Of a DNA stretch of 23,660 bases, positions 7,871 through 23,660 are shown in pieces; position 1 is the first letter of the stretch; every line of letters starts with the position of its first letter. This DNA is from Betaproteobacteria bacterium (GTDB lineage Bacteria > Pseudomonadota > Gammaproteobacteria > Burkholderiales > Usitatibacteraceae). The position numbers and the translations under genes were made by a program. The notes under the pieces are model-generated. The model made no database searches, was not told the DNA's origin, and worked only from the letters and a program-made list of their open reading frames with translations. The stretch lies in contig PQAI01000030.1 of NCBI GenBank assembly GCA_003105245.1, positions 8,166 to 31,825 on the forward strand. Reading direction: 5' to 3'.

Positions 7871-8284
7871 GTGGCCAAGCGAGTCCTCATCGCCGAAGAC
7901 GAGCCCAGCATCCTGGCCTCGCTCGAGTTCCTGATGCGCCGGGCCGGCTACGAGACGAGGAACGCCGCCGACGGCGAGGAGGCGCTGCAGCTCCTGCCCG
8001 TGTTCCGGCCGCACCTCGTGCTCCTCGACATCATGCTCCCGCGGCGCAGCGGACTGGACGTCTGCCGCGAGATCCGCGCCGACGCCTCGCTCTCCGGAAC
8101 GCGCGTGCTCATGCTCACCGCCAAGGGGGGCAACCGCGACCACGAGCGCGGCCTCGAGGCGGGCGCCGACGACTACGTGACCAAGCCCTTCTCCACGCAG
8201 GACCTGGTGGCGCGCGCCCAGGCGCTGCTGGCCGACCCCGTCCTGCGCCTCGCGCCCGGCGCCATCCCCCGGCAGGACCCATGA
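7871..8284 (+). CDS. Stand-alone response regulator receiver
   Basis: A 137-residue protein consisting of one receiver domain: acidic pocket E9/D10, phospho-acceptor D53, conserved T83 and K105 (KPF). A short proline-containing tail follows, with no output domain. The start is GTG at 7871. Its stop overlaps the ATG of the LuxR regulator by 4 bases (ATGA), so the two are translationally coupled. It occupies the place where hybrid CrbS-type kinases carry a fused receiver. It may act as a phosphate sink or diverting partner, or as a single-domain regulator of protein targets. No HPt domain is encoded nearby, so a classic multistep relay to the LuxR regulator is not obvious. Confidence 0.9.
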   Translation: MAKRVLIAEDEPSILASLEFLMRRAGYETRNAADGEEALQLLPVFRPHLVLLDIMLPRRSGLDVCREIRADASLSGTRVLMLTAKGGNRDHERGLEAGADDYVTKPFSTQDLVARAQALLADPVLRLAPGAIPRQDP

Positions 8285-8961
8285 GCTCCCCCCCGCCCGG
8301 CCCGATCCCGCAGGAGCCCACCGTCTACGTGATCGACGACGACGAGTCGATCCGGGAGCTCCTCGTCTGGCTCATGAAGAGGAACGCCATCCGGGCGGAG
8401 GCGTTTCCCAACGCGAAGAGCTTCCTCAAGGCCTACCGCCCCGGGGTGCCCGGCTGCCTCGTCCTGGACCTCTACATGCCGGGCATGAGCGGCCTCGACC
8501 TGCAGCAGTACCTCAAGGAGGCGGGCATCGAGATGCCGGTGATCTTCCTGTCGGGCCGGGCGGACGTGCCCAAGGCCGTGGCCGCGGTGAAGAGCGGCGC
8601 CATCGACTTCATCGAGAAGCCCTTCGACTACCGCAAGATCGTGGAGCTGGTCCGCGAGTGCATCCGGCGCGACGCCGCCTCCCGGGCCGGCCGCGAGGAG
8701 GCGAGGCAGCGGGCCGGGCGGCTGGCCACCCTCACCCAGCGCGAGCGCGAGGTCCTCGACCGCGTGATCGCCGGCAAGGTGAACCGCGTGATCGCCGAGG
8801 AGATGCAGATCTCCATCAAGACCGTGGAGGCGCACCGCGCCCGGATCATGGAGAAGCTGGCAGTGGACTCCGTGGCCGAGCTCGTCCAGGCGACCCTGGG
8901 GGCGAAGGCCCCGGAGCGCCCCGGCGGGGGAGGGGGGGCGGGCGGCGCCGCGGCAGGGTAG
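8281..8961 (+). CDS. LuxR/FixJ-family response regulator (CrbR/ErdR type)
   Basis: A 226-residue DNA-binding response regulator. The receiver (about residues 14-130) has acidic residues D19-D21, phospho-acceptor D63, S91 and K113. The C-terminal LuxR-type helix-turn-helix (about 150-215) begins with LTQREREVLDRV and has the recognition segment SIKTVEAHRARIMEKL. The C-terminal end is Gly/Ala-rich. It shares a 4-base overlap with the preceding receiver gene. By analogy with CrbR and ErdR it should activate acs and the acetate symporter when phosphorylated by the SLC5-type kinase. The region directly downstream (8962-9243) is the likely place for one of its binding sites. Confidence 0.9.
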   Translation: MSSPPPGPIPQEPTVYVIDDDESIRELLVWLMKRNAIRAEAFPNAKSFLKAYRPGVPGCLVLDLYMPGMSGLDLQQYLKEAGIEMPVIFLSGRADVPKAVAAVKSGAIDFIEKPFDYRKIVELVRECIRRDAASRAGREEARQRAGRLATLTQREREVLDRVIAGKVNRVIAEEMQISIKTVEAHRARIMEKLAVDSVAELVQATLGAKAPERPGGGGGAGGAAAG

Positions 8962-14226: not shown

Positions 14227-14789
14227 AGCGTTACGCCTTTTGATCTCAGGAGCTTCGCCAAAGCATGAACGGCCCGGGAACAGTGTGTTTTCACGCTGCC
14301 CTCCGAGCACCCCATGGCCTTGGCCGTTTCACTGACATCGAAGTCCTCCCAATAACGCAGCAGGAAGGCTTGCCGTTGACGCTCGGGGAGCGACTGGACG
14401 GCCTCCTCGATGATCGCCATGACCTGCGACTGTTCCAGCCGGTCCGCCGGAGACGCCGGCAGGCTCGACTGGTCCTCGACCTCGAAGGTCTCGAGGGGGT
14501 CGGCCTCGTCGTCCTCGCCGGTGAGCCCGAGGGAGGACCAGAGCGTCGTCCACGCCGAGCGCACCTTGCCGCGCCGGAAATGGTCGCGGATGCCGTTCTG
14601 GAGGATGCGCTGGAAGAGCAGCGGCAGCTCCTGGGCCGGCCGGGCCGCGTAGTTCTCGGCGAGCTTGAGCATGGCGTCCTGGACGATGTCCAGCGCCGCC
14701 TGCTCGTCCTGGACCGAAAAGACGCATTGCTTGAACGCGCGCCGCTCCACGGAGGCGAGGAAGTCGGACAGTTCTTTTCGGGTGGCCAG
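14223..14789 (-). CDS. ECF-type RNA polymerase sigma factor, CTG start
   Basis: A sigma-70 family protein of 188 residues if read from CTG at 14789. Region 2 covers about residues 10-80 (DEQAALDIVQDAMLKLAE, then FQRILQNGIRDHFRR). An acidic linker follows, then region 4 with LPERQRQAFLLRYWEDF and the helix-turn-helix SETAKAMGCSEGSVKTHCSR. The first in-frame GTG (14750) would cut off the conserved N-terminal ATRKELSDFLAS; no ATG, GTG or TTG lies between it and the upstream in-frame stop. The CTG has a good ribosome binding site (GGGAGGA) a few bases upstream. It heads a coupled operon with DUF3619, DUF3106 and RDD genes. Its regulon is unknown. Confidence 0.85.
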   Translation of the reverse strand: MATRKELSDFLASVERRAFKQCVFSVQDEQAALDIVQDAMLKLAENYAARPAQELPLLFQRILQNGIRDHFRRGKVRSAWTTLWSSLGLTGEDDEADPLETFEVEDQSSLPASPADRLEQSQVMAIIEEAVQSLPERQRQAFLLRYWEDFDVSETAKAMGCSEGSVKTHCSRAVHALAKLLRSKGVTL

Positions 14790-14863
14790 GGGTTCCTCCC
14801 GCGGGACTGGAAAAGGCGCCCGCCGGCGGGCGCGAGGTTCGAGGCTGGCCCGCGTCGGACGCG

Positions 14864-14872
14864 ACTATAGCA
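14864..14872 (-). promoter_or_regulatory. Extended -10 promoter of the sigma-factor operon
   Basis: Read on the minus strand, TGCTATAGT is an extended -10 element. It would start transcription near 14857, about 68 bases before the CTG start of the sigma gene. No good -35 is seen at 17 bases, which fits an extended -10 promoter. Confidence 0.5.
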
Positions 14873-14926
14873 AACGGCCGTCTCGCCGCCGCCGCGCGGC
14901 GGAAGGCGCTTATCCCGCCATTCGGC

Positions 14927-14955
14927 TTGACCAATCCGGACCGCCCGGCTAATGT
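14927..14955 (+). promoter_or_regulatory. Promoter of the ilvBHC operon
   Basis: TTGACC (14927-14932, 5/6 match) and TAATGT (14950-14955) are separated by 17 bases, with transcription expected near 14962. The resulting leader of about 35 bases has no leader peptide and no room for an attenuator, unlike leuA. It is divergent from the sigma-factor promoter about 60 bases away. Confidence 0.5.
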
Positions 14956-14996
14956 TCTAGGTCCCCCTTTCGAAACCTCCCGAATTACAAGGCCTT

Positions 14997-18355
<3,359 letters not shown>

Positions 18356-19011: not shown

Positions 19012-19050
19012 GGGCCGCTCCCCGCGCGGCGCCATCCCGACCCCCCTGCC

Positions 19051-20217
19051 ATGAACGCTCCCGCGAAGCACCGCCCGGCCCCCGCCGAACCGCTGCGCCG
19101 GCGCAGCATCTACCTCCTGCCGAACCTCTTCACGACGCTCGCCCTCTTCGCGGGCTTCTACGCCGTGGTGCAGGGGATGAACCACGACTTCGAGCGCGCG
19201 GCGATCGCGATCTTCATCGCCGCGGTCCTCGACGGCCTCGACGGGCGCGTGGCGAGGCTCACCAACACGCAGTCGGCCTTCGGCGCCGAATACGACAGCC
19301 TGGCCGACATGGTCTCCTTCGGCGCGGCCCCCGCCCTCGTCATGTACGAGTGGGCGCTGCGCGGCATGGGGCGCATCGGCTGGATCGCGGCCTTCGTGTA
19401 CTGCGTGGGGGCGGCGCTGCGCCTGGCGCGCTTCAACACGCAGCTCTCGGTGGCCGACAAGCGCTGGTTCACCGGGCTGCCCAGCCCCGCGGCGGCGGCC
19501 CTGGTCGCGGGCATGATCTGGGTGTTCAACGACTACCAGGTGAAGGGCGGCGAGGTGAAGTGGTTCGCCGCCGCGCTCACCGTGTACGCCGGCGTCACCA
19601 TGGTCTCCAACATCCGCTTCTACAGCGGCAAGGACCTGAACCTGCGCCGGGCCGTCCCGTTCTGGATGACGCTGGTGGTGGTGGTCGCGCTGCTCGCCAT
19701 CTCCATCGAGCCCTCGCACGTCCTTTGGGGGCTCATGCTCGCCTACGGCGTCTCGGGCTACGTGCTCTGGTTCGTCATGCGCTGGAGGACGGAGGCCAAG
19801 GAAAGGCAGTACCAGCACATCCGCGACGCCATCGAGGCGGGCGACGTGACCGCGCTCGCCCGCATGCTGCTCTCCACCCCGCCGGACACGGTAGTGAACG
19901 GGGGCGGGCGCTCGCTGCTGATGGTGGCCATCGAGGAGACCAACCTGCCGGCGGTGGAGCTGCTGCTCGCGCGCGGCGCCTCGCGCGACCACCGCGACGA
20001 GCGCGGGCTCACCGCCCTGGCGCTGGCGGCGGAGATGGGCTTCGGGGAAGCGGTCGAGGTGCTGCTCGCCGCCGGCGCGGATCCCAACGTCCGCGATGCG
20101 TCCGGTCTCACCGCGTTGGACCTCGCCGAGGAGCACGGCTCGCACGACATCGTGGCCGCCCTGCTGCGCGCCGGCGCCCAGTCGGGCACGGAGCTCGGCG
20201 ACCCGCCCGGCGCCTAG
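19051..20217 (+). CDS. pssA: Phosphatidylserine synthase with C-terminal ankyrin repeats
   Basis: CDP-diacylglycerol-serine O-phosphatidyltransferase, an integral membrane enzyme supplying phosphatidylserine to Psd. The CDP-alcohol phosphatidyltransferase motif is intact: D64-G65-x2-A68-R69-x8-G78-x3-D82-x3-D86. About six to eight transmembrane helices fill residues 20-245. The unusual part is the C-terminus. From about residue 257 the protein turns soluble and carries ankyrin-type repeats at about 286-317, 318-350 and 351-376 (for example GLTALALAAE and GADPNVRDASGLTALDLA), with a degenerate first unit. The 388-residue length exceeds the enzyme's usual size by about 120-130 residues. The reading frame is continuous across the junction, so this is a fusion and not two genes. 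No clear ribosome binding site precedes the ATG. Confidence 0.92.
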   Translation: MNAPAKHRPAPAEPLRRRSIYLLPNLFTTLALFAGFYAVVQGMNHDFERAAIAIFIAAVLDGLDGRVARLTNTQSAFGAEYDSLADMVSFGAAPALVMYEWALRGMGRIGWIAAFVYCVGAALRLARFNTQLSVADKRWFTGLPSPAAAALVAGMIWVFNDYQVKGGEVKWFAAALTVYAGVTMVSNIRFYSGKDLNLRRAVPFWMTLVVVVALLAISIEPSHVLWGLMLAYGVSGYVLWFVMRWRTEAKERQYQHIRDAIEAGDVTALARMLLSTPPDTVVNGGGRSLLMVAIEETNLPAVELLLARGASRDHRDERGLTALALAAEMGFGEAVEVLLAAGADPNVRDASGLTALDLAEEHGSHDIVAALLRAGAQSGTELGDPPGA

Positions 20218-20246
20218 TTGCCAGCGGGAACGGCCATTGCTATAGT
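20218..20246 (+). promoter_or_regulatory. Strong promoter of the leuA leader transcript
   Basis: TTGCCA (20218-20223, 5/6) and TATAGT (20241-20246, 5/6) are spaced exactly 17 bases, and TGC before the hexamer makes it an extended -10. The -35 begins on the base after the pssA stop codon. Transcription is expected to start at about 20253, the A of the leader-peptide ATG. Confidence 0.75.
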
Positions 20247-20252
20247 CGGTCC

Positions 20253-20339
20253 ATGATTCGCGTCGCGCCCATCGCCGACCTCCTGCTTCGCCTCCCCCTG
20301 GCGGGCCTCCCCGGCCTGCTGCTGCGCCTCGCGCGCTAA
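20253..20339 (+). CDS. leuL: Leucine-rich leader peptide of leuA (attenuator peptide)
   Basis: A 28-codon reading frame between pssA and leuA. Ten of its 28 residues are leucine, including LLL at residues 10-12 and 22-24, with further leucines at 14, 16, 19 and 26. It sits between a strong promoter and leuA, as expected for the peptide of a transcription attenuator that senses charged leucyl-tRNA. The predicted transcription start coincides with the ATG, so the message would be leaderless: there is no ribosome binding site, and no room for one. Mutually exclusive hairpins follow the stop codon. Leu codons are CTC, CTG and one CTT. The symbol is given by role; no homology search was possible. 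Confidence 0.72.
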   Translation: MIRVAPIADLLLRLPLAGLPGLLLRLAR

Positions 20340-20357
20340 ATACACCCTCCCCCAATT

Positions 20358-20398
20358 CGGCAGTTGCGGTGCCGCCCGGCAGACGGGCCGGCTTGTGT
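20358..20398 (+). promoter_or_regulatory. Candidate leuA attenuator hairpins
   Basis: Two overlapping stems are possible. CGGCA (20358-20362) can pair with TGCCG (20370-20374). Alternatively GCCGCCCG (20371-20378) can pair with CGGGCCGGC (20384-20392) with one bulged base, followed by TTGTGT. The second resembles a weak terminator and the first would block it. The U-run is poor and the region is GC-rich, so the exact mechanism is uncertain. Confidence 0.4.
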
Positions 20399-20424
20399 CC
20401 CACATCCCATTCCCGGAGTGAACC

Positions 20425-21981
20425 ATGCAGGACCAGTTGATCATCTTCGACACGACCATGCGCGACGGCGAGCAGAGCCCGGGCGCTTCCATGACCCGCG
20501 AGGAGAAGGTGCGGATCGGCAAGCAGCTCGAGCGCCTGCGCGTCGACGTCATCGAGGCCGGTTTCGCGGCGGCGAGCGCCGGCGACTTCGAGGCCATCCG
20601 CGCGGTGGCCGAGGCGGTGAAGGAGTCCACCGTCTGCTCGCTCGCGCGCGCCAACGAGACCGACATCCGCCGGGCGGGCGAGGCCGTGGCGCCCGCCGCC
20701 CGCAGGCGCATCCACACGTTCATCGCCACCAGCCCCATCCACATGAAGCTGAAGCTGCGAATGAGCGAGGAGCAGGTGCTGGAGGCGGCGGTCCGGGCGG
20801 TCAGGCTCGCGCGCCAGTTCACCGACGACGTCGAGTTCTCGGCCGAGGACGCCGTGCGCTCCGAGGTGGACTTCCTGTGCCGGGTGTTCGAGGCGACGAT
20901 CGCGGCGGGCGCGACGACGATCAACGTGCCCGACACGGTGGGCTACAGCGTCCCCGAGCGCTGGGGCGCGCTCTTCCGCGAGCTGCTCGGCCGCGTGCCC
21001 AACGCCGACAAGGCCGTCTGGTCCACGCACTGCCACAACGACCTCGGGATGGCCGTGGCCAACTCGCTCGCGGCCGTCATGAACGGGGCGCGCCAGGTGG
21101 AGTGCACGATCAACGGGCTGGGCGAGCGCGCCGGCAACGCCTCGCTCGAGGAGATCGTCATGGCGGTGAAGACCCGCTCCGACGTCTTCTCCTGCCGCAC
21201 CGCGATCGACGCCACGCAGATCGTGCCGACGAGCAAGCTCGTGTCGACCATCACCGGCTACCCGGTGCAGCCCAACAAGGCGGTGGTGGGGGCGAACGCC
21301 TTCGCCCACGAGTCCGGCATCCACCAGGACGGCGTCCTCAAGCACCGCGAGACCTACGAGATCATGCGCGCCGAGGACGTGGGCTGGGGCGCCAACCGCC
21401 TCACGCTGGGCAAGCTCTCCGGGCGAAACGCCTTCAAGACGCGCCTGGCGGAGCTGGGGATCGCGCTCGCCTCCGAGGAGGCGCTCAACGCCGCCTTCGC
21501 CAAGTTCAAGGAGCTCGCCGACAAGAAGCGCGAGATCTTCGACGAGGACCTGCAGGCGCTCGTCTCCGACGAGAGCGTGACCCCCGAGCAGGAGCGCTTC
21601 AAGCTCGTCTCCCTCGTCGCGCACTCGGAGACCGGCGAGCAGCCCTTCGCGCGGGTGGTGATCTCCGATGGCGGCCACGAGCTGCGCTCGGAGGCGCGCG
21701 GCGCCGGGCCCGTCGACGCCTCGTTCCAGGCGATCGAGGAGGTGGTCCACAGCGGCACCGAGCTCCTGCTCTATTCCGTGAACAACATCACCACGGGCAC
21801 CGACTCGCAGGGGGAAGTGACCGTCCGGCTGACCAAGGAGGGCCGCGTGGTGAACGGCATGGGCGCCGACACCGACATCGTGGTGGCCTCCGCCAAGGCC
21901 TACCTGAGCGCCCTCAACAAGATGGGCATCAACTCGGCGCGGATGAACCCGCAGTACGGCGAGGAGACGGCGGCGCCCTGA
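20425..21981 (+). CDS. leuA: 2-isopropylmalate synthase
   Basis: A 518-residue enzyme that condenses 2-oxoisovalerate with acetyl-CoA, the first committed step of leucine synthesis. The N-terminal TIM barrel begins with [13 protein letters not shown], including metal ligand D14. The metal-binding HCHND lies at residues 202-206, and [15 protein letters not shown] is present. The C-terminal domain (about residues 390-518) is the LeuA allosteric domain that binds leucine for feedback inhibition. The ATG at 20425 has GGAG at 20415-20418. The gene sits behind its own promoter and a leucine-rich leader peptide, so both attenuation and feedback inhibition are likely. It uses the 2-oxoisovalerate made by the upstream ilv products. 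Confidence 0.96.
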
Positions 21982-22042: not shown

Positions 22043-22381
22043 CTACTTCTTCTTGGGCGCTTCCTTCTTGGCCGGCTCGGCCGCCTGCTTGGCGATGATC
22101 TTCTCCTTGATGTCGTTGTAGACGTTCTCGGGGACGATCTTCTTGTCGAGGAGCTCGTTCTTGCCCTTGTAGGGGCGCCCCTTGATGATCGCGTCGGCGC
22201 GCGCGTCGCCCACGCCCTTGAGCTTCATCAGCTCGTCGCGCGAGGCGGTGTTGATGTCGAGCAGCGCCTCGGCCTTGGCGGGCGCTGCGGCGGCGGCGGG
22301 CTTCTTCGGTTCCTCCTTCGCGAAAGCCGTGCCGGTGGCGGCAAGCAGCGCGATGGCGGCGGCGGCGATGAGCTTCTTCAT
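22043..22381 (-). CDS. Secreted helix-hairpin-helix (ComEA-like) protein
   Basis: A 112-residue protein with a clear signal peptide (about residues 1-21, ending TAFA before KEE), an Ala/Pro/Lys linker, and a helix-hairpin-helix domain at about 40-98. The domain shows the ComEA-type LLDINTASRDELMKLKGVG and the second hairpin segment KKIVPENVYNDIK. The C-terminal tail is lysine-rich. ComEA relatives bind double-stranded DNA in the periplasm during uptake; this one is a short soluble form, and a DNA-binding role is inferred from the domain. The ATG at 22381 has AGGAGA upstream on the minus strand. It is a single gene with its own terminator. Confidence 0.88.
   Translation of the reverse strand: MKKLIAAAAIALLAATGTAFAKEEPKKPAAAAAPAKAEALLDINTASRDELMKLKGVGDARADAIIKGRPYKGKNELLDKKIVPENVYNDIKEKIIAKQAAEPAKKEAPKKK

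Positions 22382-22701: not shown

Positions 22702-23660
<959 letters not shown>

Follow-up and report, generated by a model that had tools for sequence, protein, structure and literature searches.

A predicted leaderless, leucine-rich leader peptide upstream of leuA in Betaproteobacteria

In the window, the whole 23,660-nucleotide stretch of DNA analyzed here, pssA and leuA lie in tandem, and the gap between them holds a promoter, a short leucine-rich open reading frame, and several potential RNA hairpins (Table 1). The pssA stop codon (TAG, 20215-20217) is followed at the very next base by the -35 box, as the original prediction had it, and the TTGCCA-N17-TATAGT promoter with an extended -10 is confirmed at 20218-20246 (TG at 20238-20239, TATAGT at 20241-20246); it is the only sigma-70-like site that the scan recovers between 18000 and 22600 (shuffle mean, 0.1). 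The leader ATG (20253-20255) begins 6 bases 3' of the -10 box, its A being the canonical +1 and thus the predicted start base, and the frame that it opens has the claimed 28 codons, 10 of them for leucine and including two LLL runs, before a TAA stop at 20337-20339. The 3' end of this frame reads CTGCTGCTGCGC-CTC-GCGCGC-TAA, and GGCAGTTGCGG is the segment between the C-rich run and hairpin H2. Three features lie around the leader. PssA is a CDP-alcohol phosphatidyltransferase domain fused to C-terminal ankyrin repeats (about residues 286-377); a small helix-hairpin-helix protein (22043-22381, minus strand), whose start resembles a signal peptide and whose tail is rich in lysine when read by eye, is encoded convergently with leuA; and the region upstream of ilvB (14700-15020) has no obvious leader by eye.

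Table 1. Features of the pssA-leuA region, in window coordinates.
Feature	Position	Strand	Description	Basis
pssA	19051..20217	+	CDP-diacylglycerol-serine O-phosphatidyltransferase, upstream neighbor	TIGR00473 above cut-off; Ank_2 E 9e-27
-35 box	20218..20223	+	TTGCCA	promoter scan and sequence
Extended -10	20238..20246	+	TGCTATAGT, spacer 17	promoter scan and sequence
Leader ORF	20253..20339	+	MIRVAPIADLLLRLPLAGLPGLLLRLAR, opens with ATG at the predicted +1; SD core absent	sequence, conservation
Leu-codon run 1	20280..20288	+	CTC CTG CTT	sequence
Hairpin H0	20301..20319	+	within ORF, GCGGGCC/GGCCTGC, Leu codons in 3' arm	ORF-block:Leu-block pairing test
Leu-codon run 2	20316..20324	+	CTG CTG CTG	sequence
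Hairpin H1	20323..20335	+	TGCGC-CTC-GCGCG, ends beside stop codon	conservation
C-rich run	20337..20357	+	no G, from the stop codon on	sequence; C 45-50% and G 5-6% in the first 16 nt 3' of the stop (68 representatives)
ATTCG / GCAGT motif	20355..20364	+	3' of the C-rich run	motif enrichment in 68 representatives
Hairpin H2	20371..20392	+	GCCGCCCG-GCAGA-CGGGCCGGC, -14.5 kcal/mol	folding, conservation of stability
TTGTGT	20393..20398	+	behind H2, degenerate U-tract at best	sequence
leuA Shine-Dalgarno	20415..20418	+	GGAG	sequence
leuA	20425..21981	+	2-isopropylmalate synthase, TIGR00973 type	profile match

The leucine-rich leader between pssA and leuA is not peculiar to the window. Close relatives had been proposed as a check on the frame and its Leu codons; LeuA is present in all eight same-genus genomes, the window's own included, and seven of the eight (again counting the window's own) have retained the promoter, a leader ATG placed 6 bases 3' of the -10 box, and the frame, with a C-terminus of PLAGLPGLLLRLAR, 7 to 10 leucines, and a variable N-terminal half. 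In the eighth genome (L008) the pssA-leuA gap is short and has no leader. For a broader survey we took 80 named loci (the best 80 of 589) together with upstream regions of 149 genomes out of the 170 that encode LeuA at the order level, leaving out G036, which has 88 bases upstream, and 20 genomes that were not listed; of 236 leuA upstream regions in all, 230 remained once L127 (no motif) and five duplicates had been removed, near-duplicates being kept. A promoter followed by a Leu-rich ORF is found in 127 of the 230, compared with 12, 16, 16, 15, 15, and 13 in shuffled sets, so that chance alone would account for about 12 to 16 of the 127. Six promoter matches were dropped as spurious by eye (L085, L086, L203, L217, L241, and L247), giving 121 anchored members that fall into 68 clusters; one representative of each was used in structure tests, in which 60 to 63 remained after cut-offs. 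A second rule that ignores the promoter, and asks for a 5-bp hairpin after CTGC followed by a C-rich, G-poor stretch, selects 86 of the 230 regions (shuffle mean 1.1, maximum 4); these form 48 clusters plus 7 unclustered regions, and include two that are doubtful, L086 and L196. Some members that the promoter rule misses, L101 in the window's own family among them, have the same layout on reading, and many relatives have no leader by the search rules used. Across the 68 representatives, which were selected to have at least 4 leucines, the peptides average 7.2; the C-terminus LLLRxAR is strongly conserved and the N-terminal half varies.

The spacing between promoter and start codon is conserved. 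Of the 86 hairpin-defined regions, 79 carry a -10-like box preceded by a TTG, and in 78 of those 79 an ATG lies 5 to 10 bases downstream of the box; 77 of the 78 ATGs open a frame that continues in phase with the Leu codons. Control -10-like boxes elsewhere in the same regions are followed by such an ATG in 12 of 88 cases, or in 5 of 16 when a TTG is also required upstream. Among the 68 representatives, for which a gap of 4 to 11 was part of the selection, the distance from -10 to ATG is 6 (21 cases), 7 (26), 8 (6), 9 (11), or 10 (4) bases, the start codon is ATG in 68/68, and the -10 sequence is TATATT or TATAGT in 62/68; the extended -10 (TGn) is present in the window, but in only 3/68 representatives. 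A Shine-Dalgarno (SD) core (AGGA, GGAG, or GAGG) precedes none of the 68 leader ATGs, versus 59 of 67 leuA starts, the latter counted with one ATG per gene picked blind to the SD (L126 has no in-frame ATG). The predicted start of the leader message is thereby the ATG or a base no more than about 4 nt away, and because of this predicted position of the message start, leucine shortage can probably be sensed by a stalled ribosome that uses no ribosome binding site. A putative leaderless, leucine-sensing leader peptide before leuA is well supported by these patterns, and the original proposal of a leaderless peptide holds in the form of a predicted leaderless, or nearly leaderless, leader, on the combined basis of spacing, frame, Leu codons, lack of an SD, and occurrence before two families of leuA.

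The second leuA family emerged from searches with R1, a covariance model of the ORF end, which at E <= 0.01 has a single match in the window's own genome, the pssA-leuA leader. At that threshold R1 matches 58 of 100 order-level genomes, weak matches included; at E <= 1.1e-4 there are 37 matches in the 100 genomes, and all 37 lie just upstream of a leuA. Thirty of these precede a TIGR00973-type leuA as in the window, and 7 precede a leuA of another family, the tested member of which is of TIGR00970 type, and which is absent from the R1 model. The two types of LeuA are distantly related, with weak cross-matches to each other's models. Of the best 30 loci for TIGR00970-kind LeuA, 14 carry the leader at E <= 0.05 (L272, L273, L274, L275, L276, L280, L283, L284, L288, L289, L290, L292, L296, and L297), although this share is biased upward because the query came from a leader-bearing locus. 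When these 14 are considered together with L249, which also has a leader before a TIGR00970-kind leuA, a box of the loose -10 pattern lies 6 to 9 bases 5' of the ATG in 14 of the 15, and all 15 lack an SD core. L249 lies outside the GTDB order and is the sole match at E <= 1.1e-4 in a class-level search of 140 genomes; a phylum-level search of 120 genomes gave no match at E <= 1.1e-4 apart from the window's own genome. Most if not all of the weaker matches beyond the order are due to chance, and only those with E <= 1.1e-4 were counted because L250 (E 4e-4), L270, and L271 prove on reading not to lie upstream of leucine genes. We also note that two genomes (G031 and G078) have model matches, albeit weak, before both leuA genes, and that a TIGR00970-kind leuA is present in 64 of 200 order-level genomes and adjoins the window-type leuA in three (G019, G067, and G111).

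Two hairpins near the end of the ORF and one beyond it can be followed across lineages. All five pairs of H1 (TGCGC...GCGCR) are in register in 106 of the 121 members, and by eye 14 of the other 15 have five pairs shifted by one step; alignment A1 misplaces some hairpins (e.g., L141), such that H1 pairing is undercounted there. In a formal count over 68 sequences, 92.9% of cells are paired versus 91.8% in shuffles, with 3 cells changed on both sides, and because the 3' arm is a GC repeat, sliding it by two columns leaves 88.3% still paired versus the 92.9% in register. Covariation in H1 is thus thin, and no consensus structure emerged when MAFFT plus RNAalifold were applied to the 121 ORF ends. 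Conservation of the RNA itself is better evidenced by lineages in which the hairpin is located in another reading frame (L022, L102, and L107), is built from other bases (L025, L026, L051, and L197), or lies across the stop codon (L049, L087, L088, and L147). In three further members (L176, L177, and L192), H1 is lengthened by an outer stem, GGTCGA/TCGACC, that by eye reaches past the stop codon. H0 is supported by pairing of the ORF block with the Leu block (z -0.79, se 0.16, n=61; mean z over -40..0, -1.16). The H2 region folds more stably than its shuffled counterparts (mean z -1.64, with 76% of the 68 representatives below -1), and its own arms pair better than shuffles (z -1.78). A group consensus for L164, L172, L180, and L190 shows a third hairpin, preceded by T-rich sequence, that is placed downstream of H2 and upstream of the leuA SD. 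The mutually exclusive hairpins of the original prediction can be drawn in the window, but the window leader, taken as a whole, does not exceed shuffles in stability (z -0.34), and there is no clear cross-lineage support for alternative pairing with the downstream hairpin.

Between H1 and H2, base composition is itself conserved. The maximal C-over-G 60-base stretch of the upstream region centers on the leader in 56 of 68 representatives (19.4 expected), and the window leader lies within the top 0.26% of 80-base C-over-G stretches on the same strand, with four other places in the window exceeding its C>G score. The feature looked for in a tna-like system, a region rich in C and poor in G beside the stop codon of the leader, is found here. 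The motif GCAGT occurs in 11 of 68 (1.6 expected) and ATTCG in 12 of 68 (2.8 expected). Further strong C-over-G stretches on the plus strand, possible Rho sites in their own right, are at 22757-22836, 16767-16846, 8232-8311, and 19015-19094, the last three near gene junctions.

How would the position of a ribosome on the leader be read out? In classical attenuation of the trp/leu type, H2 would be an intrinsic terminator and stalling on Leu codons would permit an alternative pairing. Terminator-like sites are indeed enriched 3' of the leader stop (10 of 68 lineages, L090 included, versus 3.1 in shuffles with H1 sites excluded; L193 looks similar by eye), and the counts are 22 of 68 versus 8.0 with a looser cut-off, and 15 of 68 versus 4.2 with H1 sites included, five being at H1 itself; because of this enrichment some lineages may use intrinsic termination. 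The window's own leader, however, has no terminator-like site in the scan. Within the genus, GGCAGTTGCGG is able to pair with the Leu/H1 region or with the 5' arm of H2, but across lineages the pairings of the pre-H2 segment (R2) and of the H1 3' arm with H2 are no better than shuffles (z +0.14 to +0.30, n=61), and those of the Leu block with the two H2 arms reach only -0.24 and -0.25 (se 0.13-0.14, n=61). There is some signal for pairing of the Leu block with downstream sequence (swap z -3.5 at 36-50 nt and -3.4 at 60-74 nt; shuffle z about -0.4, se 0.1, for sequence 32-58 nt downstream), and it is gone when the sequences are aligned on H2 (z -0.01).

Modeling of ribosome footprints gives a similar picture. 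The mean probability of H2, P(H2), is 0.75 with a ribosome at the last Leu codon (n=63) and 0.84 with one at the stop (n=62), a small difference in the direction expected for classical attenuation, but H2 is likely in both states and the shift exceeds 0.3 in only 7 of 62 lineages; in the window leader, the values are 0.92 at the last Leu codon, 0.93 at the stop, and 0.27 without a ribosome. A search of Rfam, Leu_leader included, gave no match at gathering thresholds, nor any up to E 5 in 20150-20500. A conserved terminator/antiterminator switch is not supported at the family level, and the pairing tests and footprint modeling did not find the conserved pair on which the original prediction had staked itself. 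Single lineages may use the classical H2 switch, yet as the general explanation for these leaders we regard it as unlikely.

A second possibility is translational control as proposed for the actinobacterial LEU element, in which leader structure would mask the leuA ribosome binding site as long as no ribosome stalls. The leuA SD is mostly paired in the modeled untranslated leader, and the Leu block pairs with the SD region slightly better than in shuffles (z -0.34, se 0.13). Nonetheless, mean SD accessibility is 0.25 with the ribosome at Leu and 0.30 with it at the stop, the difference exceeds 0.3 in 1 of 60 lineages and then in the wrong direction, and pairing of the SD with the C-rich run is at z -0.07. 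SD sequestration is not supported because accessibility hardly changes between ribosome positions, and we consider control of this kind quite improbable.

We think it still less probable, to the point of giving it little weight, that the peptide itself or a released short leader RNA acts in trans as the functional product. The strong conservation of the LLLRxAR C-terminus could be taken that way, and excerpts of PMC7298713 describe a leaderless trpL peptide of Sinorhizobium as trans-acting; but the codons for LLLRxAR are also H1, the lineages that change the motif (L022, L025, L026, and L049) retain a hairpin, and the N-terminal half is variable. That the promoter alone is functional and the frame a chance ORF can be put aside almost entirely: C-rich DNA yields Leu-rich frames easily, as shuffles satisfying the rule 12 to 16 times in 230 illustrate, but such an ORF would not be open and in phase in 77 of 78 cases, always with ATG and never with an SD core.

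We favor, with a probability of roughly 0.6, a leucine-specific, ribosome-mediated attenuator of leuA that operates from a leaderless leader, and whose readout is most likely not hairpin exchange, Rho being the favored alternative. Sensing of leucine by a translating ribosome is the natural reading because of the Leu codons, the frame, and the linkage to leuA, and since no switch that depends on ribosome position was found, a readout without alternative pairing remains. In place of a switch, these leaders have conserved a hairpin where the ORF ends, a run rich in C and poor in G after the stop codon, and another hairpin that in most cases has no U-tract, an anatomy that would best be fitted by a readout in which Rho binds the C-rich stretch whenever no stalled ribosome shields part of it. 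From this anatomy and its conservation we infer a start site, leader translation, stalling, and a role for Rho. A ribosome would load at the 5' end of the message without an SD and, when charged leucyl-tRNA is scarce, would stall at the Leu codons immediately upstream of the stop codon. There it would cover H0/H1 and part of a putative C-rich, G-poor Rho entry region, and with Rho entry thus shielded upstream of H2, RNA polymerase would continue into leuA. With sufficient leucine, the ribosome would run off and leave the region bare, and transcription would end at or after H2. Because the C-rich run lies beyond the footprint of a ribosome on the Leu codons, shielding would have to act on a longer rut. 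The broader proposal, of a Betaproteobacteria-centered set of leaderless Leu leaders that lack an antiterminator, govern Rho access to a C-rich run, and stand before two distantly related leuA families, is more tentative, and we put it at somewhat less than even odds.

Several known systems resemble this leader in part. The enterobacterial leu operon attenuator, Leu_leader in Rfam, likewise has a Leu-codon peptide before leuA, with expected sensing of Leu-tRNA; the present leader differs in having no SD core, no Rfam match, and no conserved terminator/antiterminator pair. The E. coli tna operon is Rho dependent; a ribosome on its leader ORF determines whether Rho gains entry beside the stop codon, and TnaC senses free tryptophan via nascent-chain arrest. 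Control of Rho by a ribosome beside the stop is the proposed common element, whereas codon starvation is proposed here. The tna operon is also named in PMC1262725.

Leaderless peptides of this sort have precedents, and the contrast with the textbook design drawn in the original prediction stands for enterobacteria but not more generally, as leaderless leader peptides are known, from excerpts of the respective papers, in Actinobacteria (PMC8079986) and as trpL in Sinorhizobium (PMC7298713). As described in portions of PMC8079986, Streptomyces lividans leuL1 precedes leuA, is leaderless, and has no typical Rho-independent terminator, and the study refers to the same in other Actinobacteria; the actinobacterial LEU element before leuA combines a pseudoknot and a base stem and links Leu codons with the leuA SD (PMC1262725, in part). 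Both resemble the present leader in being Leu-rich leader peptides upstream of leuA, and differ in phylum and in an SD-linked switch that is not found in the present leader; the excerpted descriptions of leuL1 and the LEU element do not include the H1 and C-run anatomy (PMC8079986 and PMC1262725). In Corynebacterium glutamicum, also an actinobacterial host, the leader before leuA shares the Leu-codon run, and there is an ilvBNC leader peptide (PMC4046766, in part); the title of a reference cited there speaks of an ilvB leader peptide that is produced in the absence of a ribosome binding site. In Sinorhizobium meliloti trpL, the transcript begins with the ATG itself (excerpts of PMC7298713), so that it shares with the present leader a leaderless peptide and a proteobacterial host, and differs in responding to tryptophan, in its described terminator/antiterminator switch, and in belonging to an alphaproteobacterium. 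The Cysteine-rich uORFs of mycobacteria, small conserved ORFs upstream of metabolic genes and rich in the amino acid of the pathway (PMC4633059, in part), concern another amino acid and another phylum. Leaderless mRNAs are described in Burkholderia and Cupriavidus (PMC4603805 and PMC7563307), and the word leuA does not occur in their main texts. Among the titles and abstract openings listed by searches of an open-licence library, none showed a betaproteobacterial leuA leader.

These leaders would widen the range of leaderless attenuator peptides beyond Actinobacteria and Sinorhizobium to much of the Betaproteobacteria, and a conserved small ORF would gain a clear predicted function. They would also provide a natural case of leader translation that is barred from initiating through an SD. 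Should the Rho readout prove correct, the leader ORF could sense amino-acid starvation without an RNA switch, and searches for terminators would miss leaders of this kind.
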